In this document: one piece after another, positions 8,057-50,770 of the stretch
Position numbering within the stretch: position 1 is the stretch's first letter
Layout of the letters: the number at the start of each line of letters is the position of its first letter
NCBI GenBank assembly: GCA_947034885.2
Contig: OX344752.2
Location: forward strand, 12,648,001-12,712,000
Origin: Thuidium tamariscinum
Lineage: Eukaryota; Streptophyta; Bryopsida; Hypnales; Thuidiaceae
DNA: 64,000 nt
Direction: 5' to 3'
The notes under the pieces: model-generated
The model's database searches: none
Seen by the model: the letters and a program-made list of their open reading frames with translations, nothing else
What the model was told of the DNA's origin: nothing
Position numbers and translations under genes: made by a program

Positions 8057-8793
8057 ATAACCCCTAAAGGACCAAGGCCTTCTTCCCGTAAAAAAACATT
8101 TAAAACTGCCATTTCTATAGCAAAGAGTAAAAGAATCTGAAAACTATTTTTTTTCCCACATCTAACCATAAAATCTTACACTTGACTTTGAACCTCCTTA
8201 ACTTAATTTTTTTGCACTACACACTTTGAACTTTACATCTTTGTGATATATAATTGAGTTGAGACTTTAGGGAAACAAAGAAAAGTACAAAAATTGTAAT
8301 TTTAATCCTTTTAAAAATTATTAAATAGAAGTAGATACAAGATAGAAGGAAAATCTAAATTATTAATATCTCTAAGATGGAATTAAAATGAACTAATCCT
8401 AATGGTCAAATTGTTCTAGTAAGCAAAATAAACCATGTGAAATTTGTTTTTTTGAAAATCTATACAAATTGCATTCAAAATTAAATCATGTAAGTTATTT
8501 TTTCAAGAAGCTTTTTACAAAGACAAAAATATAATCAATGAGAAGGATTTTTTTTCATTTCTTAATACTCAAATTTTGGAATTTTATTTTGCTGCCTAGT
8601 CTCCCCTATTTTGAGTTTATTTGGACATAATTTTTGTTTCCTAGCACCAACTAAAAAAAATTATATTCCCATCAAGCTAATCAAAGTTTCTATCTTTGAA
8701 AAAATTTCAAAAAATCAGAATGAAATTTGTGTTTGTAGATATTGCCCAAAATCCCATTGCCCCTCGAAGGGAAAATGGTCTTTTAGGGGTTAA
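8057..8793. mobile_element. Family C (TTAA-type) MITE, C1
   Basis: Starts CCCCTAAAGGACCAAGG (from 8061) and ends GGTCTTTTAGGGG (to 8789). The flanks are ATAA on the left and TTAA on the right. It is a reverse-orientation relative of C9 (34.7 kb): its left end matches the inverted right end of C9. The interior is AT-rich and non-coding; short open frames such as 8611-8793 are incidental. Confidence 0.7.
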
Positions 8794-8955: not shown

Positions 8956-9894
8956 TTAATCCCTAAAGGTTTTTGACTATGTTTTCACCAAAACCACTCC
9001 AAAACTATTATTTCTAGGACAACTACCAAACTTTAAGAATAGAACATTTTTGGACAAATGTAACTATAGGGTCTTTTAATACACTAGTTTGAAAAAATGT
9101 GGAAAAAAATTCAGAAATTTTTACCATGTAGATTGCAAGAAGTGACAAAAACCAATTTTTTACTACTACAAAAATTTAGGCAGCTACAATTCAGAAGGCC
9201 TCATTAGTATGAAAAAATGTCCAAAATGATTGTAGCTCTTTGGATTCATTCTTCAAGTCAAATTGGCTGCATGATTAAAAAAATTTCAAATCATTTGGAA
9301 TTGTACAACATGTAGGAAAAAAATAATAAGTAGAAAAAAATAGAGAATGATTCAAAATACTAAATTATTAACAATTTATTTATAGATTTAAAAAAATCCA
9401 ATCCCAATGGTTGTAATGTTGTATTGAACAATCTACACCCAATTTTTAAAAAAGTTTTAATATTTAAAATTGAATTAAATAAAGAATTTCAAACTTTTTT
9501 TTGTAGAGTAGAGATTCTATAACTAGCTACAAACTACCCAAAACTAAAATCCTCGTAACTTTTGACTCATTGATCGAAATGGAATGATTCAAAGCTTTCC
9601 ACTTAGATATAAATCTAATAAACCAATTTCAGAATTTTTTTTAAAAAAAAATTAATTTTTAAAGAAGTTTTTTTTTCTACCCAAACTGCTCGTTGAGGTA
9701 TGAAAACTACATATCAAACAATAACTTTTGAACCATGTAGTCAAAAGTTATGAAAATTGTTGAGCCTTAAAGTTTCAACACAAGAAATTGTTGTGTGAAA
9801 ATTAAAAAAAATAAAAATAAAAACTCCATTCATAGGAACCTGCCCAAAATTGCTATGTTGCTAGAAAAGTGCACTTTAGTCCTTTAGGGGTTAA
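8956..9894. mobile_element. Family C (TTAA-type) MITE, C2
   Basis: Flanked by TTAA at 8956-8959 and 9891-9894. The left end reads TCCCTAAAGG (one change from CCCCTAAAGG) and the right end CCTTTAGGGG. The segment near the right end, AAAATTGCTATGTTGC, is shared with C5 at 22.15 kb. Non-coding. Confidence 0.65.
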
Positions 9895-14174: not shown

Positions 14175-16040
14175 TTAGAAGCACACAGGGCACCGACTCA
14201 ATCCATTTTCGTTGCAATCTGGGCACTGCGTCACCACATTCGCCTCCGTGATGACCTTGCAGCTGCCGCTACACTGCAGGCACGGCACAAAACGCACCCC
14301 ACCACAGCCATCACAGGGCTTTCGGAAGTGCACCACCGGAAGATCTTTCAGCAAATCCCTCAATTTGCCATCCTCATGGAGACGACGCACTTCATCCGAA
14401 CCGCCAATGTAGCGTCCTTTGATGAACACACGCGGGACAATCACAGGTCCACCCACCAGCTCCTTGAGCTCGTTCCGAAAGTCTTGGTGCATGGAGACGT
14501 CGCGCTCGTCTACCCACACGGGGAAACTCTGTAGAATCATGCGCACGCTGTGGCAATCCTCGAACGTTTTGCGGATGCCGCGCAAGCTTGTGAGGTAGAG
14601 GACGACGCGGTCGTCACCACCTGGTGGACACCTCTCTTCGTATTTCATTAGAGGATTCAGCATTGCCTTGAAACGAGGCATGGTGTCCATGGGCGCCACC
14701 TTTGCGAATGACATCCTGCGCGGGCCGTAAGTTCCTGAATGTGAATCCTCCCGAATGGCGTCACAGATATGGCTGGACTGAGCCCACTGAATGGGGCTGT
14801 CGTCACCAGCCGTGCTGCCAGATGTGGAAGCCTCCCGAATGGCGTCGCAGATATGGCTGGACTGAGCCCACTGAATGGGGCTGTCGTCATCAGCCGTGCT
14901 GCCAGATGTGGAAGCCTCCCCGTCAATGTGACACCAATCGTCGTCCGAGGAGACTCGCTCCTCAGAAACCAAGTCTTGGAACGTCGCCAAGATGTCCGGG
15001 TCGAACAAGTTGCTGTCTGAGATGCCCTCGTCAATGGAGCCGTGTCGGGGAAACACGGGCGGGACGTAAGACTCTTGCACTGGGAAGCCCATCACTTGCC
15101 CACTCGGGAGGAGCCCCACGTTACTACTCAGTGGACCACTGAAGCGCTGTGCGAGTTCGGGTGGCATACTGAGGGGCCCGCTGTAATCCACGCGGGTGAA
15201 GTCCATTGGGAAGCCATTGCTGCTGAGCGGGCCACTGTAGCGCTGAGAAAAGTCCATGCTGCCGCGACTGGAGAAATCCATGCTGCCGCGGTTGGAGTGG
15301 AAGCCGTTCTGGGACGAAATTTGCGTGACAGAGGACGTAGAGTCCAAGTCGGGGACAATAATCCCAGCTTGCTTCGCAGTGCGGAGACCGTCTACTGCGG
15401 ACAACGAGCGCGACCGAGAAATCGACTTCGCCGGCGCCGCGTCAGGTAGTTTTCGCAGAGACTCACGTTCTTGGGAAGTGTTCACCGTGGTGGTCGCGAG
15501 TAAGGGGGAGATATGAGGCGCTGCTTGGTCGTCTAACCCCTCCATCAGCTCCCATGTGTTGATCGTCTCAGTTTCCCCACTCGAAGTAGGGGTGGGCAAG
15601 GGCGCTTCCTCGGGGATTTTAGGGTTCAGGGGAAACTTGGCCTCAATTTGGTCCTTCCGGATCTGCTCCAGCTTGAAGCGCGAGGAGCCCTGCATCGCCA
15701 TGTCGGTCCATGTCTTGGGCGGGACCTTCCCGACGGGCATAGACTCGCATTTCTTCATCTTGGAGTAGGCGGGTAAAGCTAAGGTTTCCTTCTCGTCCTG
15801 CTTTCCGCCAATTACAGAAACTAAATGCTCGTTCACATTGTCCGACTCCAGAAGCTTCATAAGCCCGTACGTGCTCGACGTGAGCGCCACCACGTGGTAG
15901 TCGTAGTGGAGGTCGCGGGGCTTGGTGGATCGCAAATGCGTGAAGGAGGAACTCTTGCCGAGCCGACGCATGCTTCCAAGGCGACCCTTGTCGCGACCCT
16001 CGGAGAACATCGAGCCATCCCTCGACGCTGTGCACCCCAT
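14175..16040 (-). CDS. Plant glutaredoxin-domain protein with C-terminal CxxC repeats
   Basis: A 621-residue single-exon protein, complete from ATG (16038-16040) to stop. The N-terminus MGC is a classic myristoylation/palmitoylation signal, suggesting membrane anchoring. Residues ~1-470 are low-complexity and Ser-rich. Near 251-306 the peptides RGSMDFS (twice) and SGPLS (three times) recur. Residues 375-402 and 403-430 are a near-perfect 28-residue tandem duplication. The glutaredoxin fold spans about 477-570, starting RVVLYLTSLRGIRKTFEDC and including VDERDVSMH and the cis-Pro motif VPRVFIKGRYIGG. The CPYC-type active site is absent; TSLRGIRKTFEDC stands in its place, as in the Arabidopsis At5g39865-type proteins. 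Residues 576-620 hold four CxxC pairs (CDGC, CLQC, CPDC, CPVC), probably binding zinc. Family members are poorly characterised; a classical thiol-disulfide role is unlikely. MGC and the flush N-terminus fix the start. No neighbouring gene shares its function. Confidence 0.93.
   Translation of the reverse strand: MGCTASRDGSMFSEGRDKGRLGSMRRLGKSSSFTHLRSTKPRDLHYDYHVVALTSSTYGLMKLLESDNVNEHLVSVIGGKQDEKETLALPAYSKMKKCESMPVGKVPPKTWTDMAMQGSSRFKLEQIRKDQIEAKFPLNPKIPEEAPLPTPTSSGETETINTWELMEGLDDQAAPHISPLLATTTVNTSQERESLRKLPDAAPAKSISRSRSLSAVDGLRTAKQAGIIVPDLDSTSSVTQISSQNGFHSNRGSMDFSSRGSMDFSQRYSGPLSSNGFPMDFTRVDYSGPLSMPPELAQRFSGPLSSNVGLLPSGQVMGFPVQESYVPPVFPRHGSIDEGISDSNLFDPDILATFQDLVSEERVSSDDDWCHIDGEASTSGSTADDDSPIQWAQSSHICDAIREASTSGSTAGDDSPIQWAQSSHICDAIREDSHSGTYGPRRMSFAKVAPMDTMPRFKAMLNPLMKYEERCPPGGDDRVVLYLTSLRGIRKTFEDCHSVRMILQSFPVWVDERDVSMHQDFRNELKELVGGPVIVPRVFIKGRYIGGSDEVRRLHEDGKLRDLLKDLPVVHFRKPCDGCGGVRFVPCLQCSGSCKVITEANVVTQCPDCNENGLSRCPVCF
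14751..14918 (-). repeat. 84-bp in-frame tandem duplication inside the CDS
   Basis: Two 84-bp copies (14835-14918 and 14751-14834) encode residues 375-402 and 403-430, each starting EASTSGSTA and ending SSHICDAIR. They differ at only a few bases (for example GTCATCAGCC against GTCACCAGCC, giving one Asp/Gly change), so the duplication is young. The frame is preserved. It lies in the disordered linker ahead of the glutaredoxin domain. Confidence 0.95.
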
Positions 16041-17700
16041 TGTGCGATCAAAACCTGCTGCCTGGAAACTACAATTCTAAAGGAAACGATGTAGGTGGGA
16101 ATGTCGTCTCCGACACATGAAAAACTAAAGATGAACGCGTGTGACTTAACCAAAGATATGAGAGTGGAGCCCGCCACGTTTCTTCACGCGCTTCGGGCCA
16201 GAAATGATTCATGGGTGTCACCTTGGAGCAGAAATGGTTGCGTACTGAAAAAACACAAACCAAAAGGCACTCACAGTTAGCCTCGGATCCGCTTACGAAA
16301 AACCTAATATGAAACTCCAATTTCCTGCCTACGCTAAAACCAAATAGGACAGACAGCCTAGCGTGAAGAACACACTGCCCAGGTTCAGGATCCACATAAA
16401 GAGACTAAACTTGCGCTGTCAACTATCAAGCCTTAACCCTGGTTTGGCAGAGCACACTCGGAAGATCTGTATAAAGATGACTAGATAACCCTTCACCTCC
16501 AGGACCGCAATGGGTATCACGACCTTCAACTGACCACGGACACTACACCCGGACACTACCCCGAAAATTTCAAATATCCCAGGAAGCACTCACGACTGAA
16601 AGGAGAAGGGATTTAAATCTAACACGGCTGTAAGGCTCAACGCTGGAAGCAGACGTGATTCAAATCAAAGCGCGTACCCCGCACGCAAAAAGACACATCT
16701 TCCTCTTAAAAGGCGCTGTAAGCGTAGAAAAGGTCATACCCAAAGGGTGCCAGACCCGAAAGAAGGGGAACTTCGGCAAAACAAACTTCGGGACGGCAAA
16801 CTACGAGAACGACCAAATCCTCAACCCGCAAAACTCCAACCGCACACATTCAAACACGCAAATTTTCAAAATCCGCGATGCTCAAGCAGGTCAACGGCCA
16901 CTAAAAAACACCCCGCTGACACACTTGTGTCAGAGATCAGAGGATTCAAAACCACTCCAGTTTCACAATTGGCTCACCCCCTTCAATGCACGCAAGAAGG
17001 AGGCGAACAAAGAGAAAACTCCGGAAAACGTCCTGCAACCAAGAGATCCAAGTCCACACGATCCACAAACCTGGAAATCACTCTCTCGCGCCTCTTCCTT
17101 CACGACCATCACCTCCCTTCTTGGTCCTTTGCTTCGAACATCATACTGGAAGCACCCCCTGACACTGACACAGGTCAACCAACATAATAAACGCACGCAC
17201 CCAACACTACCATCACCACGACACCACCCGTACCGCCACCCACCACTTCGTCTCTCACCGTCACCCTGGCTTAGACTCCCACGCAGTCGTAATCCCCTCC
17301 TCCAAATGTCCAACAACAAACAATCCAGAACGCCAGAAGAGATTCCCGACGAAATCAGATCCAAAACAGCCCAGCAGCGGAGAAGACTAAGAAGACCGGC
17401 CACGGAACAAACAAAATGTTCACCCACCGATTCGCCTGAATTCGCAGGAGGAATGCGTGTGGAGCCAGGGAGGACGGAGAAAAATGACTACTGACTGCCT
17501 AATGACTAGGTGGCGAGATTGAGGGAGACTTGAGATTGGGAGATTGGCTGAGAGAATCCAGCGAGGAGGGGCGCTGGGGCCCCAAACGCGACGAGAGCGA
17601 GGAGGAAGAGAACGTCCCGCGGGCCCGCGGCGACTGACGACAGAACACACGGTTTCGGCGGCGGCTTAGCGCGGCAGCACATGGCGCGTGTGGAGCGCTT
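16041..17700 (-). promoter_or_regulatory. GC/CpG-rich 5' leader and promoter region
   Basis: Composition jumps to GC-rich here and is densest in CpG at ~17.57-17.70 kb, then collapses into AT-rich DNA after ~17.7 kb, as expected for an unmethylated plant 5' end. On the minus strand the transcript side has pyrimidine-rich stretches (CTCGCTCTCGTC, TTCTTCCTCC) typical of plant leaders. An intron in the 5' UTR is plausible: a GGTGAG-type donor lies near 17.26 kb, and pyrimidine-rich acceptors (TTTCCTTTAG, TTTCCAGGCAGCAG) lie just before the ATG. There is no clear TATA box. Several ATG-started frames in the leader could act as uORFs (for example 17420-17650, 76 codons). Long open frames on both strands here reflect GC richness, not genes. 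Confidence 0.5.
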
Positions 17701-18742: not shown

Positions 18743-19589
18743 TTAACCCCTAAAAGCCCAAGGGGTTAGGACAAAACACAAATGTGCTATAAAATATAAG
18801 AATTACAACTTTTTTGAAGTTAGTATCAAAGAAGATAATGTAAAGCACAACAAGTAGAAAGTATCCATACAGTCAAAGTAAAAAAAAAAGTTTTTAGATT
18901 ATTTTTAAATGAATTTTGAAGATATAACTTCAAAAATTCACCAAAAATACAATTTCTATTTTTAGGATTTGAAATTTTTTTTGATTGGTCAAAATTGTGT
19001 TTTTTTATTGATTTATAGAAAAATGCAAAAATATTCAACCTCTAAAAGCCCAAGGGATTAAGACAAAATACAAATGTGTTATAAAATATAAGCTTTACAA
19101 CTTTTTTGAAGTTAGCATCAAAGAAGATAATGTAAAGCACAAAAATTAGAAAGTATACATATGATCAAAATTTAAAAAATATTTATAGATTCTCTTCAAA
19201 TGAATTTTGAAGATATAACTTCAAAAATTCACCAAAAATACAATTTCTATTTTTATGATTTGAATTTTTTTTGATTGGTCAAAATTATGGTTTTTATTGA
19301 ATTGTAAAAAAATAAAAAGTATTTACTAATGAGAGCATCAGTAATTCCCCCAAATAGTAAGTTTTTCAACACTAAGCAATTTTAGACACTTTGTACTATT
19401 TCTCCTTTTTTTTGCTATAACTTTTTTTTGACTGTACTAATCTTAGTTTTGAATATCAATGTTGAAAGAAAACCCAAATTTTTCAAAACTGAAAAAAAAA
19501 AATTTGAAAAAAGTTTTTTTTTTGCTCGAAAATTCTGCCCGAAGTCAGGCAGCGACCAGAAAATGGTCGCTTGAGCGCTTAGGGGTTAA
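18743..19589. mobile_element. Family C (TTAA-type) MITE with internal duplication, C4
   Basis: Flanked by TTAA at 18743-18746 and 19586-19589, with ends CCCCTAAAAGCCCAAGG and GCTTAGGGG. Inside, a ~292-bp unit is repeated head-to-tail: TAAAAGCCCAAGG at 18751 recurs at 19043 and the matching text continues for ~290 bases (for example TATCAAAGAAGATAATGTAAAGCAC). The second unit starts with a degenerate copy of the element's own left end. Confidence 0.7.
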
Positions 19590-21653: not shown

Positions 21654-22198
21654 TTAACCCCTAAAGGATCAAGTTGCGATTTGGGGCAATATAGCGATTT
21701 TGGGTAGCTTTCTTTGAATGGAATTTTTATATTTTTTCTTTGAAATTTTCACACAACATGTGCCCAAGGAGTAGCTTTAAGGCACAACAATTTTCATAAC
21801 TTTTGACTATATAGTCAAAAAGTTATTGCATGATATGTGATTTTCTTTGATCTTTGGGCAGGCTAGGTGCCGGCTCAAAAACTTTTTTTAAAATCACTTT
21901 CTGAACAAATGAAAAATCGAAACTGATCCTTTAGAATTATATGTATGTGATAAACTTTGAATCATTCAATTTTGATTAATGAGATGAAAGTTATGAGGAA
22001 TCTTAGTTTGTGGGTAGGTATGGAATCTCTAAGAATCATAACTACCCACAAATTAAGACTCCTCATAATTTTCACCTCATTCATCAAAAAAAAATTAAAT
22101 GATGTTTTTGAAGTAAAAATATAAAAACTTCATTTGTAATGAATTGCCCAAAATTGCTATGTTGCCAAAAAAACACAACTTGATTTTTTAGGGGTTAA
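21654..22198. mobile_element. Family C (TTAA-type) foldback MITE, C5
   Basis: Flanked by TTAA at 21654-21657 and 22195-22198. Ends are CCCCTAAAGGATCAAG and TTTTTTAGGGG. The whole element is a rough palindrome; near the middle GAGGAATCTTAGTTTGTGGGTA is mirrored by TACCCACAAATTAAGACTCCTC. Its right-hand text (AAAATTGCTATGTTGC) is shared with C2. Confidence 0.75.
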
Positions 22199-27064: not shown

Positions 27065-27791
27065 TTAACCCTTGAAGGACGGGTCTATGACCACTGGTTA
27101 GAAGCCCCCTTTCTGGTCACTCAATTTGATACCATTCAGGAACCAATCAAGTATGAAATTTTTTATTTTTATTTTTCAGAGATGGAAGTACACGTCTTCT
27201 GCACTTCACAGAAATTTCAGATTTTTTTAGAGGAAAATTGATTTTTATGAGATTTTTTGAAGAAAAAATGAAGAAAAAATCATAGAAAATTATCTCAAAA
27301 AATTTGAAAATTTCACGATGTGTGTAAATTGTTGTGACAAACATCATGGTGTAAACTCAACGTCCGTGTACACCTATTTATAGGTTGCAGTGGACACCAA
27401 AGATGCAACCAAAATTCAAATTACAATAAAATTTTCAATTTTATAAAATTTTCCAAAATTCCAATTGGAGTAGAAACTAGAAGAAAAGGCCTTCATTTCA
27501 TTACTTGGGTTCAAACTCAAAAAATGTCATTTTCAAGGAGAAATTTCAGATTCATTCAATTTCTCAAAATACACTGAAATGGCAAATTTTGCCATCCATT
27601 TTCTCTAATTACTTCTCAACTACATGAAAAGAAATAGTAGTTAGACTAAAAACTCAATTGGAGACTCTTTACAACTGAACGTGAAAGGTCATTAAAAAAA
27701 GTGGATGAAAAAACTACTATTCACGTCCTCTGCTGCCCCTACAAAGTCATCCAAACACCAAAAAATGGCGTCGGCATTGCTTAGGGGTTAA
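27065..27791. mobile_element. Family C (TTAA-type) MITE, C6
   Basis: Flanked by TTAA at 27065-27068 and 27788-27791, with ends CCCTTGAAGGACGGG and GCTTAGGGG. It is a close relative of C8 at 31.4 kb (shared GGTCTATGACCACTGG and TTCAGAGATG). The sequence to its right is repeated at 29053 without the element, where a single TTAA stands at the same place. Confidence 0.8.
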
Positions 27792-29440: not shown

Positions 29441-29977
29441 GGTAGAAAAAAGTGGCGGTTTGGGGGTAACTCACCCACCTCCTAGACTTCAGTCTGGGAC
29501 CGACATCCCAAAAAATTGAAAAAGCAATGGAATTGGTCCATATGCTTCCAAAAGAATTTTGAAAAATGATCCGAGGTGGCGAAAGGCCAATGGGGGAATG
29601 TAAAAATTGGGGTACTGCCAACAACTGGAACCTCAGTGGCCAGACACGGCTGGGCTTGCTTGTTGGCATCAATGGGGAGATGCCATCTGTCAGTACTTTT
29701 GATTTCTCCGATGCAGTGTCCACCAACACGGGCATGTTCCCCATGCGTACACACTACACACTACTGACGGGAATATAGAATTGTTCGTGGAACTCGCAGT
29801 AATTTCAAAGAAACTGAAAGGAACTACAGTATCTTACTGTATTAATTCTATCTACAGTACAGTACTGTAGTGTACCGGTAGTGTAGGCCACATTCTTTTT
29901 AGGCAATTTACTCACTACGGAGTATTTCCTAGATTTCCTTCAGGACAGGCCCATAACTTTCAGCGAGGTTGCCTTAC
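29441..29977. other. Unassigned sequence running into a duplicated segment
   Basis: Overlapping frames on both strands around 29412-29778 match nothing recognised. From ~29850 the text (CTATCTACAGTACAGTACTG and CACTACGGAGTATTTCC) is repeated near 31.1 and 32.5 kb. Confidence 0.35.
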
Positions 29978-30932
29978 TCAACCCCTAAAGGCCCAAGGCC
30001 TTTTTTGAGCTTCTCTGAATTTGCTTTAAAGTGAAAAAAAAGTCAACTTTTTGATGAGCTTTATCAACTTCTTTTTGAAATGTAACCATACAAATTCAAA
30101 CCAAACATATTAGAGATCATTTAGGAAAATAAAACACAACAATATCACTTATGGATTGAAAGATTATAATGTTTGATTATGAGGGTGTTAAAATTGCAAA
30201 AATGATGTGAAGTCTTGTAATCCTCTTTTCACAAGTCAAATCTATAAAGTTGGTGACCAGAAAAATATGAGGTGAAATGGCCTAATATGCATAGCCCTAA
30301 TCAATTTATAGCTTCTCATAATCTTCTCTACAATTTTTTTAAGTGAATTTCTAATGTGATTTTTTCTCCAAGATCTACTGTATTTAACGCTCATTTTCAA
30401 GAGCCCTCAATACTAGAGAAAGTCAAGATTGCAATGGATACCCTTGTACAAAATGTTGAATAGGAAAATCATAGTCAATCATTTTCAAGATCAGTTTTTT
30501 GATGCTTAAATTAGACTTTAAAATAATTCCTCAAAAATATAAACTACTAAAAATAGCAGCTTGGTTAAATTTTCTTCAAAGTTTTGCAAACACTAAATTT
30601 TGGTGCCTTGGGTACAGTTTTTTTTTTTCATTTCTTGTGAACTGCCAAAGTGGCGATATTGCATTTTACCGTGGAGCTCCAAATCTCAACATTCATCTAT
30701 ATATTGGATAGAAAATATCATATTAGCATATAATACATATGTATCATTGTATTTTCATCCATTATTTGGCGATTTCATCCACTGTTTTAAAAAAATTTGA
30801 AGTTTATTGGTGATTTCATCCAAAATTTTACTGTTTTTTTTCCTATAGGCTAGGTGCCAGGCTAAAAAATTTGGTGCAATTTTGCACCCAATCGCCAGAG
30901 AAAAAAACCCTGCTTGGGCATTTAGGGGTTAA
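29978..30932. mobile_element. Family C (TTAA-type) MITE, C7
   Basis: Left flank TCAA (29978-29981), right flank TTAA (30929-30932). Ends CCCCTAAAGGCCCAAGGCC and CTTGGGCATTTAGGGG. Its interior is the reference form for C10-C12 (for example AGTTTTGCAAACACTAAATTTTGG). It sits within a segment that recurs at ~32.5 kb without it. Confidence 0.75.
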
Positions 30933-30981
30933 GTTCACCCTGCCCCTCTTTGGAGTTCTCATCTACAAAATTTATCCACTC

Positions 30982-31073
30982 TCTTCATTCGTCCCGCTTT
31001 GCCTTGGCTGTATTTGATCCATTTTTTAAAATGCAATGGTTCTCCATTTGTTATTAAAAAAAATCCACTCATC
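30982..31073 (+). mobile_element. 92-bp LINE 3'-end insertion (plus)
   Basis: Ends AAAATGCAATGGTTCTCCATT, then TTGTTATT and eight A. The 7-bp TCCACTC is duplicated at 30975-30981 and 31074-31080. The related segment at ~32.60 kb reads straight through (TTCATCCACTCATCATGAC), giving a paralogous empty site. Confidence 0.75.
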
Positions 31074-31117
31074 ATGACTACATTAAGTTACTATATTGAT
31101 TCTATCTACAGTACAGT

Positions 31118-31347
31118 ACTGTAGTGTATCGGTAGTGTAGGCCACATTCTTTTTAGGCAATTTACTCACTACGGACAGTGTTCTCAAAACTGTTTTTGGA
31201 AATTAGTGCAATATGCTACCTTTCAAGAGAAACTGTAGTGTATCGGTAGTGTAGGCCACATTCTTTTTAGGCAATTTACTCACTACGGACAGTGTTCTCA
31301 AAACTGTTTTTGGAAATTAGTGCAATATGCTACCTTTCAAGAGAAAC
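31118..31347. repeat. 114-bp tandem duplication
   Basis: The unit beginning ACTGTAGTGTATCGG (31118) repeats exactly from 31232. Both copies contain CACTACGGACAGTGTTCTC and end TTTCAAGAGAA. A third, partial relative starts near 29867. Confidence 0.95.
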
Positions 31348-31430: not shown

Positions 31431-32165
31431 TTAACCCCTAAACGACGGGCCTATGACCACTGGTTTGAAGACTCCTCTCCCGTCACACAATTTGTTACCG
31501 TTTTAGAACCAGTCATGTCTCGAAAATTTTATTTTTATTTTTCAGAGATGAAAGTACATCTCTTCTATACTTCACAGAAATTTCAGATTTTTTTGAGGAA
31601 AATTGATTTTCATGACAGTTTTTGAAGAAAAAGTGAAGAAAAAATAATAGAAAATAGAAAATAATCTCAAAAAATCTGAAAATTTCACCATGTGTGTACA
31701 TTATAGTGACAAACATTATGGTGTAAACTCAACTTCCGTGTACACCTATTTCTAGGCTCCAGTGGACATTAAAAATCCAGCCAAAATTCAAATTGCTATA
31801 GAACATTCGATTTTACGAATTTTTCCAAAATTCCAATTGCAGTAGAAACTAGAAGTGAGGACCTTCATTTTGTTAGTTGGGCTCAAATTCAGAAAATGTC
31901 ATTTTCAAGGAGAAATTTTTAATTTACTCAATTTCTCAAAATACACTAAAACAACAAATTTTGCCATCTGTTTTTGGTAATTACTTCTCAACCACATGAA
32001 ATCAAACATCAGCCAGACAAAAAACTCAGTTGGACACTCTTCGTAACTCAACATGCAAGGGCATTAAAAAAAATACAGATGAAAAAACTATTGTTCAGCT
32101 CCTCTTCTGGTCCCTTGCAGTCATCCAAAGGCCACGGAATGGCTTCGGCGTCGTTTAAGGGTTAA
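31431..32165. mobile_element. Family C (TTAA-type) MITE, C8
   Basis: TTAA at 31431-31434 and 32162-32165. Ends CCCCTAAACGACGGG and CGTTTAAGGG. Interior closely follows C6. Confidence 0.8.
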
Positions 32166-32642
32166 GAGTACTGTAAGACAAAACTAACTAAATATATGCT
32201 AATTCTACTATAGAAGAAGTTGCAAATTGGCTATCAAATTTTATTGTTTGTTGTAATTTTGACTAAAATGGCTCCATTGAAGGCCCTTTTTTACAGTGTA
32301 ATAGTAGCGCAAGGATTTTTTTGGTAGAAGTGGAGCGAAATTTAGCCAAGTTTGAGAACGCTGCTACAGAGCAGTGATCTCAAGGTTTTTAGTCAAATGT
32401 TCATTTTTGGAAGATTTTTAAAAATTTATACAAAGGGCATGAAAAAATTAAGTAGAAAATGAGCGAAATTTAGCTGGTTTTGGGATCATTGTTACGGAGT
32501 ATTTCCTAGATTTAGTTTCGTACAGGACAGGCAGCAAGGTTGCCTTACTTGAATTCATTTTCCTTTTTGGAGTTCTCATCCACAAAATTCATCCACTCAT
32601 CATGACTATCTATACATTAAATTAGCATGGTATATTCTTTTT
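32166..32642. other. Remainder of the duplicated segment
   Basis: Around 32.50-32.63 kb the text (TTACGGAGTATTTCCTAGATTT, CAGGACAGGC, TTTGGAGTTCTCATC) repeats that at 29.92-29.98 and 30.95-30.98 kb. No gene seen. Confidence 0.5.
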
Positions 32643-34728: not shown

Positions 34729-35649
34729 TTAACCCCTAAAGGCCCATTGTCCCCTCGGGCAACAATTTGGAGTTCGGACAGGTTTTGTAGACCTCAATTT
34801 TTAATGAATCTTTTTGAAACTTTCTCATTAGATAGGAAAATTGATTAGCTTTGTGAGAATACAACTATTATTTCAATTGGTGCGCAGGAGCAAAAGTTAT
34901 ACCACAAAAAGCCCAAATTTTAACTCAACAGGTAGAAAAATAAATCCACAAAAACTTGAAATTTATTTTTTAATTTATTTTATCTTATAGATTATATTTT
35001 TGTCTACGTGTGAAGCTTTGATTCATTCCATTTGGATTAGTTATGTGAAAGTTATGAACAATCTTGTTTTCGGGTAGTTTTTGAAAAAATAACTTATAGG
35101 ATTCATTTCTGAATACAATTTTCACAATTTTTCAAAACAAATTGCTAGAAAAGGTTAAATTTTCTTGCTAGAACAATCTCACTTTTGGGATTATTGTGTT
35201 TCAATTCCATCTTAGAGCTATTGACGATTTGATTTTTCTTTCAATCTTGAACCTACCTCTACTTAATAATTTTTTAAAGAATGAAAATCAAGCATTTTTT
35301 TTAAAATTTTTTTTCCTAGACTTTCAACTCAATTCTTAAACACAAATTTTTTTTAGTTCAAAGTCTACAGTGCAAAAAAATTCAACAAATGGCAATCAAA
35401 GTCATCTGAAATTGCAGGATAGTGTTTTAAAAAACTATGTTTTCCAACTTTGAATGCTCATATCTTCCAATCTATACTATCAAACTTCATGAAATTTTTA
35501 CCACATGATCTCAGAAAAAAAAACAGTAGAAAATCCTATGGTTAGATTCTAAAAAAACACTTTTTTTTGTTCTTTTGGATGAACGTAGCAAGAATGGTAG
35601 TTTTGAGTGGTTTTTGACATAAAAATGGCCTTGGGCCTTTATGGGTTAA
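34729..35649. mobile_element. Family C (TTAA-type) MITE, C9
   Basis: TTAA at 34729-34732 and 35646-35649. Ends CCCCTAAAGGCCCATTGTCC and GGCCTTGGGCCTTTATGGG. The subfamily is shared, in opposite orientation, with C1. Confidence 0.75.
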
Positions 35650-45005: not shown

Positions 45006-45454
45006 GAGCGATCAGGTTTTGGCACTTGCTACAGAAATGAGTGATGCGTTTGTATGTGGGCAGTGTTCGGGAAACTTTTGAAAACCCTCCCTCCTTCCAC
45101 GAAAATCAACCGGTTTTTTTTCTAATGGGCACCGCCGTTGCATCCTTTGAATCATGGAAAGTAGTGGTTTATTTCCTTCAATTTCAATTTCTCACCAGTT
45201 AATTTCCTTCAAATTGAAATTGGCATGGACGAAATTGCAAAATTCTTATAATGTAGAGAAAATCAAGTTGAAAATGAAAGTACCAAATAATATTTCATCC
45301 TTGGTACAAATTGAAGGTCAACTTGGATCCTCTCAATCCATGCAATATGGAATTGAGGATGGTCATGAAGAGGTTGCTTAAATAAATAAAAAATTAGGAA
45401 GTATCAATTTCTTTCATAAGATACTACTCTTGCAATCCCTTGCATGGTTTGGGA
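45006..45454. other. Unassigned sequence
   Basis: A 75-codon plus frame at 45154-45381 has no recognisable features. Nothing else seen. Confidence 0.3.
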
Positions 45455-46754
45455 CACTACAAGAGAAAGGGGTGTTTTAAGTATAGTCCTAGAGATAAGA
45501 TTTTAAGTAATAACCTTCTTAGTAGATTTTAAGTAAGAAATATGTGTCTTTCTAGTAAAATTTTACTAGAAAGACACATATTTCTTACTTAAAATCTACT
45601 AAGAAGGTTATTACTTAAAATCTTATCTTTAGGACTGGGTTATTGCAAGAAACACCGACCACTTTTGTAGTGCTTTGTAAAATTTGTTCTTGTCCAATGC
45701 TATAACTTTTGATTGATGAATCCAATGCCCAAACAAATAAATCTATTTCTAAAACTCTTGATTGCAATCATATTTTATATTTTTCAAAAAAATTTAAAAA
45801 TCATTTTATATTTAAAATTTATTTTTGTTAATTTGTCACACTTTCAAGATTAGGGTTTTTTTATACTATTGATTGGTTCAAATTAATGATTTTTGGTTGA
45901 AATTTTTGTGGTATGTTTTTATAGTATGTATACATGCCCCTACCAAAGGGCATCTAAAAAAACATTATTTTATGACCTCTACATTAGTGCAAATAGGCCT
46001 CCCTTGCACGCACACTTCAAAACATTAGAAATGGTTTTGAATTCATTTTTTTAGTCAAACCTCATTACCAAGAAGTCTTCTCAAATGGCCAGTTTTTTGT
46101 TTTGTTCAAAAATGTTTTTCCTATTTTTTACAAATTAAAACATCAATGTATGTATTTTCTTTACTAGAATTCAATGTCCAAGATGATGTCCTAGAAAATA
46201 CATACATTGATGTTTTAATTTGTAAAAAATAGGAAAAACATTTTTGAACAAAACAAAAAATTGACCATTTGAGAAGACTTATTGATAATGAGGTTTGACT
46301 AAAAAAATGAATTCAAAACCATTTCTAATGTTTTGAAGTGTGCGTGCAAGAGAGGCCTGTTTGCACTAATGTAGAGGTCATAAAATAATGTTTTTTTAGA
46401 TGCCCTTTGGTAGGGGCATGTCTACTACATACTATAAAAACATACCACAAAAATTTCAACCAAAAATCATTAATTTGAACCAATCAATAATATGAAAAAA
46501 CTCTAATCTTGAAAGTGTGACAAAATTAACAAAAATAACTTTTAAATATAAAATGATTTTTGAATTTTTTTTGAAAAATATAGAATATGATTGGAATCAA
46601 GAACTTTAGAAATAGATTTTTTGGTTTGGGCATTGAATTCAACAATCAAAAGTTATAGCATTGGACAAGAACAAATTTTGCAAAGCACTACAAAAGTGGT
46701 CGGTGTTTCTGCAATGACCCGACTATACTTAAAACACCCATTTCTCTTATAGTG
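45455..46754. mobile_element. CACTA-type MITE (B1) split by A5
   Basis: Begins CACTACAAGAGAAAGGGGTG, ends CACCCATTTCTCTTATAGTG, flanked by GGA (45452-45454, 46755-46757). It is itself a hairpin: the arms meet at AAAATTTTACTAG near 45568. Without the A5 insertion (1084 bp plus a 4-bp duplication) its length is 212 bp, the same as B2. Non-coding. Confidence 0.85.
45637..46720. mobile_element. Family A foldback element, ~1.08 kb (A5)
   Basis: Begins GGGTTATTGCAAGAAACACC, ends GGTGTTTCTGCAATGACCC, with GACT on both sides (45633-45636, 46721-46724). The B2 copy shows the unoccupied equivalent of this site. The arms are nearly identical along ~500 bp (for example AAGTGGTCGGTGTTTC against GACCACTTTTGTAGTGC), centre ~46178. 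It is the best preserved palindrome in the window, so it is probably young. Confidence 0.9.
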
Positions 46755-49918: not shown

Positions 49919-50770
49919 CACTACAAAGGAAAGGGGTGTTTTAAGTATAGTCCTAAAGATAAGATTTTAAGTAATGACCTTCTTAAGAGATTTTAAATAA
50001 GAAATACTTGTCTTTGTAGTAAAATTTTACTACAAAGACAAGTATTTCTTATTTAAAATCTCCTAAAAAGGTCATTACTTAAAATCTTATCTCTAGGATT
50101 ATACTTAACCCCTAAGTGCCCAAGGCTTGTTTTGAGTGTATTGGAATTTACTCTAAATTGAACAAAATGCCAACATTTTGTTTTTTTGTATCAATTTTTT
50201 TGGAATTGTAACTGTACAAATTCAAACTAGACATATTAAAGATCTCATGGAAAAAGAAAACACAACAATATCACTAACAGAGTGAAAGATTATAATGTTT
50301 GACCATGAAGGTGTTGAAATTGCAAAAAACTTTCAATCTTCTTTTCACAAGTCAAATCTAAAACAATGGTGACCAAAAAAATACGAGGTTAAAGGACCTA
50401 ACATGTATAACCCCAATCAATTTACAGCTTCTTAAAAACTACTCTCTAACTTTCTTAAATGAATTTTGAATGTGATTTTTGATCCAAGATCTAGTGTATT
50501 TGAGGCTCATTTCCAAGAGCTCTCAACACTACATGGAGTTTAGATTGCAATGGGTACCCTTGCACAAAATCTTGTATAGAAAAATCACTATCATTCATTT
50601 TCCAAATTGGATTTTGGACACTAAAACTAGACTTTTAGAAGAACTTTCTCAAAATACAACTACTAAAAATAGAAACTTAATTAGGTTTTATTTAACTTGA
50701 AAGTTTTGCAAACATTAGATTTTGGTGCCTTGGGTAGTTAGGGGTTAAAACACCCCTTTTTCTTGTAGTG
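49919..50770. mobile_element. CACTA-type MITE (B2), third layer of the nest
   Basis: Begins CACTACAAAGGAAAGGGGTG, ends CCTTTTTCTTGTAGTG, with TCT on both sides (49916-49918, 50771-50773). The hairpin centre is AAAATTTTACTAC near 50032. Without C10 and its TTAA duplication it is exactly 212 bp, as is B1. Confidence 0.9.
50105..50748. mobile_element. Family C (TTAA-type) MITE (C10), innermost layer
   Basis: TTAA at 50105-50108 and 50745-50748. Ends CCCCTAAGTGCCCAAGGC and GGTAGTTAGGGG. B1 keeps the single TTAA at the equivalent position (ATACTTAAAACACCC), so insertion with exact TTAA duplication is directly visible. Confidence 0.9.

Follow-up and report, generated by a model that had tools for sequence, protein, structure and literature searches.

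Probable piggyBac-superfamily MITEs and their transposase-encoding relatives in the genome of the moss Thuidium tamariscinum

Introduction

The closest described relatives of the elements reported here are the piggyBac transposons of animals. The piggyBac element of the moth Trichoplusia ni (PDB 6x67, 6x68) targets TTAA, has ends beginning with CCC and encodes a DDD transposase, all of which recur in the moss elements, whose catalytic aspartates align with those of the moth protein; a palindrome at bp 17-33 of its left end binds the cysteine-rich domain (PMC7351741). The moth element spans 2,472 bp (PMC10803768) and its transposase chain 594 aa. By sequence, the best solved relative is piggyBat of Myotis lucifugus (PDB 9c0f), which differs from the moss elements in host, size and upstream ORF. 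Among miniature elements, the MITEs of two coral genomes, also from an animal host, appear to have been discussed together with piggyBac and TTAA (PMC2872659).

Regarding plants, the sources differ. A 2022 review of land-plant transposable elements lists six TIR superfamilies with piggyBac absent (PMC9033089). Conversely, a 2015 survey reports PiggyBac for every group it covers, among them the land plants (PMC4438587); a table for the fern Ceratopteris contains 1,230 PiggyBac fragments, whose share of the genome is given as 0.00% (PMC6890710); the plant superfamilies named in a 2024 review include PiggyBac (PMC10794571); and one abstract counts plants, besides insects and fungi, among the sources from which piggyBac was isolated (PMC10813416). 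An earlier note on the DNA studied here, which held that the superfamily is not tied to well-described land-plant lineages, is thus fair in the light of the 2022 review and not absolute in the light of the other four sources. piggyBac is therefore already known as a kind of element and has been mentioned for land plants, and our non-exhaustive search of the open-access literature found no earlier report of it in a moss, a database-only entry (Repbase, moss repeat libraries) being possible. Further, rice is a plant in which moth piggyBac has already been used (PMC4309413, PMC10905368).

In this work, we analyzed a 64,000-nt stretch of the T. tamariscinum assembly (C4:12648001-12712000, hereafter the window), together with the 363.2 Mb and 19 contigs of the genome searched. 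We describe the MITEs of the window, their target site, the transposases and full-length elements with comparable ends found elsewhere in the genome, and two features of those elements, namely a palindrome at the 5' end and a conserved upstream ORF.

Results

Nine MITEs in at least four subfamilies

Nine complete, non-coding elements of 0.5-1 kb (545-955 bp) with CCCCTAAAGG-like ends were identified in the window, all on the + strand, fewer than the minimum of ten copies of a "Family C" that had been counted previously. Sequence comparison also divides this supposed single family into at least four subfamilies with common end tips, which have hardly anything else in common. Subfamily i includes the elements at 8057..8793 (737 bp, between ATAA and TTAA) and 34729..35649 (921 bp, TTAA on both sides); related to it are the elements at 8956..9894 (939 bp) and 21654..22198 (545 bp, a relative of the former), both with TTAA on either side. 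Subfamily ii is constituted by 27065..27791 (727 bp) and 31431..32165 (735 bp), again bordered by TTAA on both sides, and subfamily iii by 18743..19589 (847 bp). Subfamily iv comprises 29978..30932 (955 bp, between TCAA and TTAA) and 50105..50748 (644 bp), which match at 78% over 643 columns. The latter, with ends CCCCTAAGTG and CCCCTAACTA, lies between two copies of TTAA, as the earlier note had described.

CCC starts 17 of the 18 MITE ends in the window, the exception being the left end of the 8956 element, with TCCC. These elements display the characteristics of MITEs: they are short, lack a long open frame (none of the nine frames of at least 150 aa in the window lies inside them), occur in high copy number and, in six of nine cases, have ends resembling those of autonomous elements (at least 25 of 38 positions). 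When 26 loci carrying an exact CCCCTAAAGG tip were fetched from elsewhere in the genome, the interior of a 932-bp reference element (L002) was matched in only 6.

Several structural details of the window were also recorded. The 50105 MITE is nested in an older element (49919-50770) with inverted ends CACTACAA...TTGTAGTG, which we take to be CACTA-like; this host element contains an 84-nt inverted repeat, 95% complementary and with no spacer (49941-50024 / 50025-50108). Within the 18743-19589 MITE, a segment of 291 bp is directly duplicated (88%), and another sequence resembling an end lies at 19039. Copies of a repeat of about 115 bp flank the 29978 and 31431 MITEs (29823-31347). Finally, a 633-aa open frame at 14175-16076 on the - strand has a glutaredoxin domain, presumably of the plant type.

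Insertion at TTAA

With up to two mismatches, TTAACCCCTAAAGG was found 16 times in the window against 0.57 expected, and none of 100 shuffles reached 16. TTAA adjoins 16 of the 18 MITE ends, the remaining two having ATAA (8057) and TCAA (29978), with a background in which TTAA starts at 0.9% of the window positions. Across the genome, exact CCCCTAAAGG occurs 10,070 times, compared with 364 for a reversed-pattern control, and TTAA stands directly before 8,526 of these occurrences (84.7%), compared with 2 for the control. Neither in the window ends nor in the genome-wide tips, then, do most copies lack TTAA, the outcome which had been named beforehand as contrary to a TTAA-duplicating family. 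Partner ends were assessed at 26 fetched loci with one exact end, the other end being chosen regardless of TTAA: 10 adjoined TTAA directly and 3 after a small indel (by eye), while 2 were one letter off, 4 had another tetramer and 7 loci showed no recognisable partner. Ends without TTAA, both in the window and among the fetched partners, would be most simply explained by later mutation. Since 3 of the 18 window ends carry CCCCTAAAGG exactly and 8,526 tips in the genome are preceded by TTAA, a rough guess from this small sample would put the whole genome at about 25,000 elements.

The duplication was further assessed at paralogous empty sites, two of which had been proposed. The first proposal holds: for the 50105 insertion, the sequence at 45450..45636 (- strand) is an empty site that aligns cleanly and without gaps on both sides and contains one TTAA. 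The other, 27792/29053, was rejected as a full empty site, as the homology begins 2 bp left of the TTAA and the left flank is non-homologous, leaving a one-sided comparison. A second two-sided case was found for 29978-30932 at around 32493-32598, with a single TTGA; this one is weaker (77%, two gaps).

piggyBac transposases in the moss genome

The Pfam piggyBac transposase domain (PF13843) matched at least 116 places above the cut-off, out of 658 candidates, located on contigs C1-C10 and with a best E of 5.7e-80; the same search of control genomes gave no match in any of 14. Some of the matching frames contain stops. Thirty transposase loci were fetched and grouped into 14 clusters at 80% identity, with identities down to 37% between clusters, and the catalytic D, D, D are present in all 30, of which 11 are near-identical.

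In phmmer comparisons, the 969-aa frame of L040 matched piggyBat at 3.4e-26 and piggyBac at 3.9e-18, and the L038 domain matched them at 5.3e-34 and 9.6e-21, respectively; beyond these two, neither protein matched a solved structure at E 0.01. The main stop-to-stop frames of the moss elements reach 1,023-1,127 aa, longer than the moth chain. Candidate cysteine-rich tails, a possible parallel to the T. ni transposase, were recognized by eye in L040 and in L044-type frames, the L040 tail aligning with piggyBat at just -2.9 bits. Upstream of the catalytic domain, the L040, L042 and L044 frames display a common short stretch (approximately "...L.F.DG.I...C.GAV.R"), which has no Pfam match and is possibly a small folded domain. 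A relative was also sought among IMG/VR viral contigs, where two pattern matches were obtained and none was confirmed.

Full-length elements with ends like those of the MITEs

A TTAACC end was located within 1.5 kb past the transposase domain in 8 of 14 clusters. Ten of the at least 14 transposase clusters were extended, and eight of them (L039, L040, L041, L042, L044, L067, L068 and L069) have TTAA and CCC ends on both sides, delimiting elements of 4,896-5,946 bp; in the other two, L070 and L071, extension yielded no paired ends. At 4.9-5.9 kb, these elements are larger than the moth element. All eight start with CCC at both ends. In L039, L040, L042, L044, L067 and L069, the PF13843 domain lies almost entirely within a single open frame, whereas a stop breaks the transposase frame of L041 and L068. 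The check proposed in the earlier note thus has a positive outcome, as full-length elements with comparable ends and a piggyBac transposase are present, and a partner encoding a different type of transposase, which it had named as the contrary outcome, was not encountered, PF13843 being present in all eight two-ended elements.

The link between MITEs and full-length elements was evaluated through 288 ungapped comparisons of 38-bp ends with a threshold of 25 matching positions. Most comparisons gave 13-20, and 14 reached 25, covering six of the nine window MITEs. For MITE 18743, the right end agrees with the 5' end of the L039 element (5,946 bp) in 41 of 42 bp, and the left end agrees with the 3' end of that element in 22 of 23. 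For MITE 34729, the left end matches the L069 5' end at 31/38, and the right end matches the 3' ends of L069 (26/38) and L039 (25). In subfamily ii, MITE 31431 reaches 27/38 between its right end and the 5' ends of L040, L042 and L044, and 25/38 between its left end and the 3' ends of L040 and L042, while the right end of MITE 27065 reaches 29, 27 and 26 of 38 with the 5' ends of L040, L044 and L042, respectively. MITE 27065 is matched at this one end alone; the same applies to MITE 8057, through its right end (27/38 to the L069 5' end), and to MITE 50105, through its left end (25/38 to the L069 3' end), its right end giving nothing above background. No full-element end reaches 25/38 for MITEs 8956, 21654 and 29978. 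In no case did both ends of a MITE match the same kind of end; this consistent polarity is what would be seen if each MITE retains a 5' end on one side and a 3' end on the other.

Two further relationships were considered and rejected. Subfamily i does not appear as an internal-deletion derivative of a full element, as besides the ends just one stretch of 46 bp of MITE 34729 matches L069. Further, at L042:1915-7607 a full piggyBac element lies beside a subfamily ii MITE; a single TTAA common to both was discarded, the actual order being TTAA, four bases, TTAA.

A recent burst and an older MITE subfamily

At eleven loci (L020-L030), one element recurs with 99.9-100% identity along some 3,984 bp; no two of the eleven flanks are the same, and all 11 junctions fall exactly at TTAA. 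In L022, the flank ends in CCTTTAGGG, resembling a MITE end. The element is 5,096 bp long in L044, and the L043 copy differs from it at one position over the 5,013 bp compared. Because eleven near-identical copies occupy eleven different TTAA sites, their sequences indicate a recent burst of one element. In comparison, of the 40 best-scored among 7,786 candidate copies of MITE 34729, distributed over C1-C10, 39 are 87-91% identical over nearly the full length and one is partial. Judging from these identities against those of the burst copies, subfamily i is older than the burst element, and not young.

These results bear on the alternative that best survives, namely that the commonest MITEs, with CCCCTAAAGG tips, were made by a piggyBac transposase that is extinct or was not seen, the elements found being its relatives. 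In its favor, none of the full-length elements obtained carries exact CCCCTAAAGG on both sides, and the age of the 34729 subfamily, whose best-scored copies are 87-91% identical to that MITE, would fit such an origin. On the other hand, MITE 34729 has both its ends matched by L069 with consistent polarity, and a closer partner may have been missed, as ten of the at least 14 clusters were extended. We consider this alternative improbable, yet worth retaining, and favor transposases of the kind found here as the source of mobility.

A palindrome at the 5' end and a conserved upstream ORF

A palindrome centered near bp 25 was found in six of eight full-length 5' ends (at least 6 of 9 pairs, a score reached by 7.6% of internal positions) and in one of eight 3' ends. 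The palindrome was first seen by eye in five elements, and two of three elements fetched later reach the score; three of the six palindrome-bearing 5' ends belong to one clade, so that the number of independent cases is smaller. Among 32 ends, 11 score at least 6/9 pairs near bp 25, compared with 13.8% of internal positions; when the palindrome is allowed anywhere in the first 90 bp, these 32 ends show no excess over internal stretches, and the bp 25 position alone stands out. The sequence of the arms differs between groups. In its position, this palindrome resembles that at bp 17-33 of the T. ni left end (PMC7351741), and has no good 3'-end copy in the moss: a spacer-shifted internal repeat of it at the 3' end, sought over the first 400 bp in five elements, was discarded with best matches of 10-11/19 bp.

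Seven of the eight full elements differ from moth piggyBac in carrying an upstream ORF, in which some 120 aa are conserved; L069 contains no relative of it at E 1e-3. Between groups, most pairs match by phmmer at E 1e-4 to 1e-17 within a set of only seven sequences, with nothing significant between L068 and the L040 group, and no significant relative was found in Pfam or PDB. When one of these ORFs was used as query, 136 genome places were obtained at E 0.001, and for at least 54 of them a PF13843 match follows on the same strand, no more than 5 kb downstream, compared with 0.095 expected from displaced positions and none in another order; conversely, an upstream partner of this kind accompanies at least 54 of the 116 transposase matches listed. 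In the eleven burst copies, the ORF is 100% identical and lies beside the same eleven transposase matches. We infer that the ORF could be part of the transposition machinery, either as an N-terminal part joined by splicing or as a separate helper.

Discussion

Taken together, the duplication of TTAA, the CCC ends, the end sequences common to MITEs and full elements with consistent polarity, the DDD transposase and the recent burst lead us to assign the window elements, with high confidence, to the MITEs of the piggyBac superfamily, probably moved in trans by transposases of the same genome. The earlier note had arrived at piggyBac from TTAA and CCC ends, and this reading gains support from full elements with such ends that encode a PF13843 transposase. 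By analogy with moth piggyBac, a transposase dimer would bind both element ends, hairpins would form at the element tips, and the element would insert into TTAA, with the donor TTAA left restored.

More tentatively, and with somewhat less than even confidence, we propose that mosses may harbor a piggyBac lineage that is old, diverse and mobile to this day, with an upstream module needed for mobility and asymmetric ends having the palindrome on the 5' side only; this lineage could have seeded tens of thousands of MITEs and might provide a native plant tool. piggyBac is valued as a means of seamless genome engineering, and a lineage native to plants, in which eleven copies are all but identical, might yield a system adapted to plants. 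Such a lineage would also permit the study of piggyBac silencing and escape in a bryophyte, and would extend the lists of plant DNA transposons that omit piggyBac, while the extra conserved module raises the question of what piggyBac needs in a plant.

Other superfamilies were weighed against this assignment. Sola3 also uses TTAA. A Sola-type origin has further in its favor that Sola1 is listed for the moss Physcomitrella (PMC9033089); however, in the elements delimited here both the ends and the transposases between them are those of piggyBac, which makes it very unlikely. More improbable still is Kolobok, the other well-known superfamily duplicating TTAA: its termini are given as 5'-RR and YY-3' in the report that describes this duplication (PMC9587614), whereas here they are 5'-CCC or TCC, and the transposases between matching ends in the elements delimited here belong to PF13843. 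That DNA of an animal or another eukaryote contaminated the assembly, as might be suspected of a superfamily chiefly described from animals, can practically be dismissed, given that the transposase matches lie on C1-C10, that these ten contigs also hold the copies of one MITE, and that the 50105 copy lies within a local repeat. The gene content likewise agrees with a moss host. In their first 6 kb, contig C18 (103,123 bp) contains cox1, YMF19 and ATP synthase B genes, and contig C19 contains rps12, rps7 and a gene for NADH dehydrogenase, for which reason we read them as mitochondrion and plastid, respectively. Light-harvesting proteins gave 49 matches in the genome; for one of these, the best solved match is 9vfj, a multi-domain LHC chain, and the best single-domain ones are the Physcomitrium structures 7xqp and 8htu, with a very narrow lead over many others. 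Concerning the assembly itself, contigs C9 and C19 have round sizes (24,900,000 and 115,000, respectively) and may therefore be cut.
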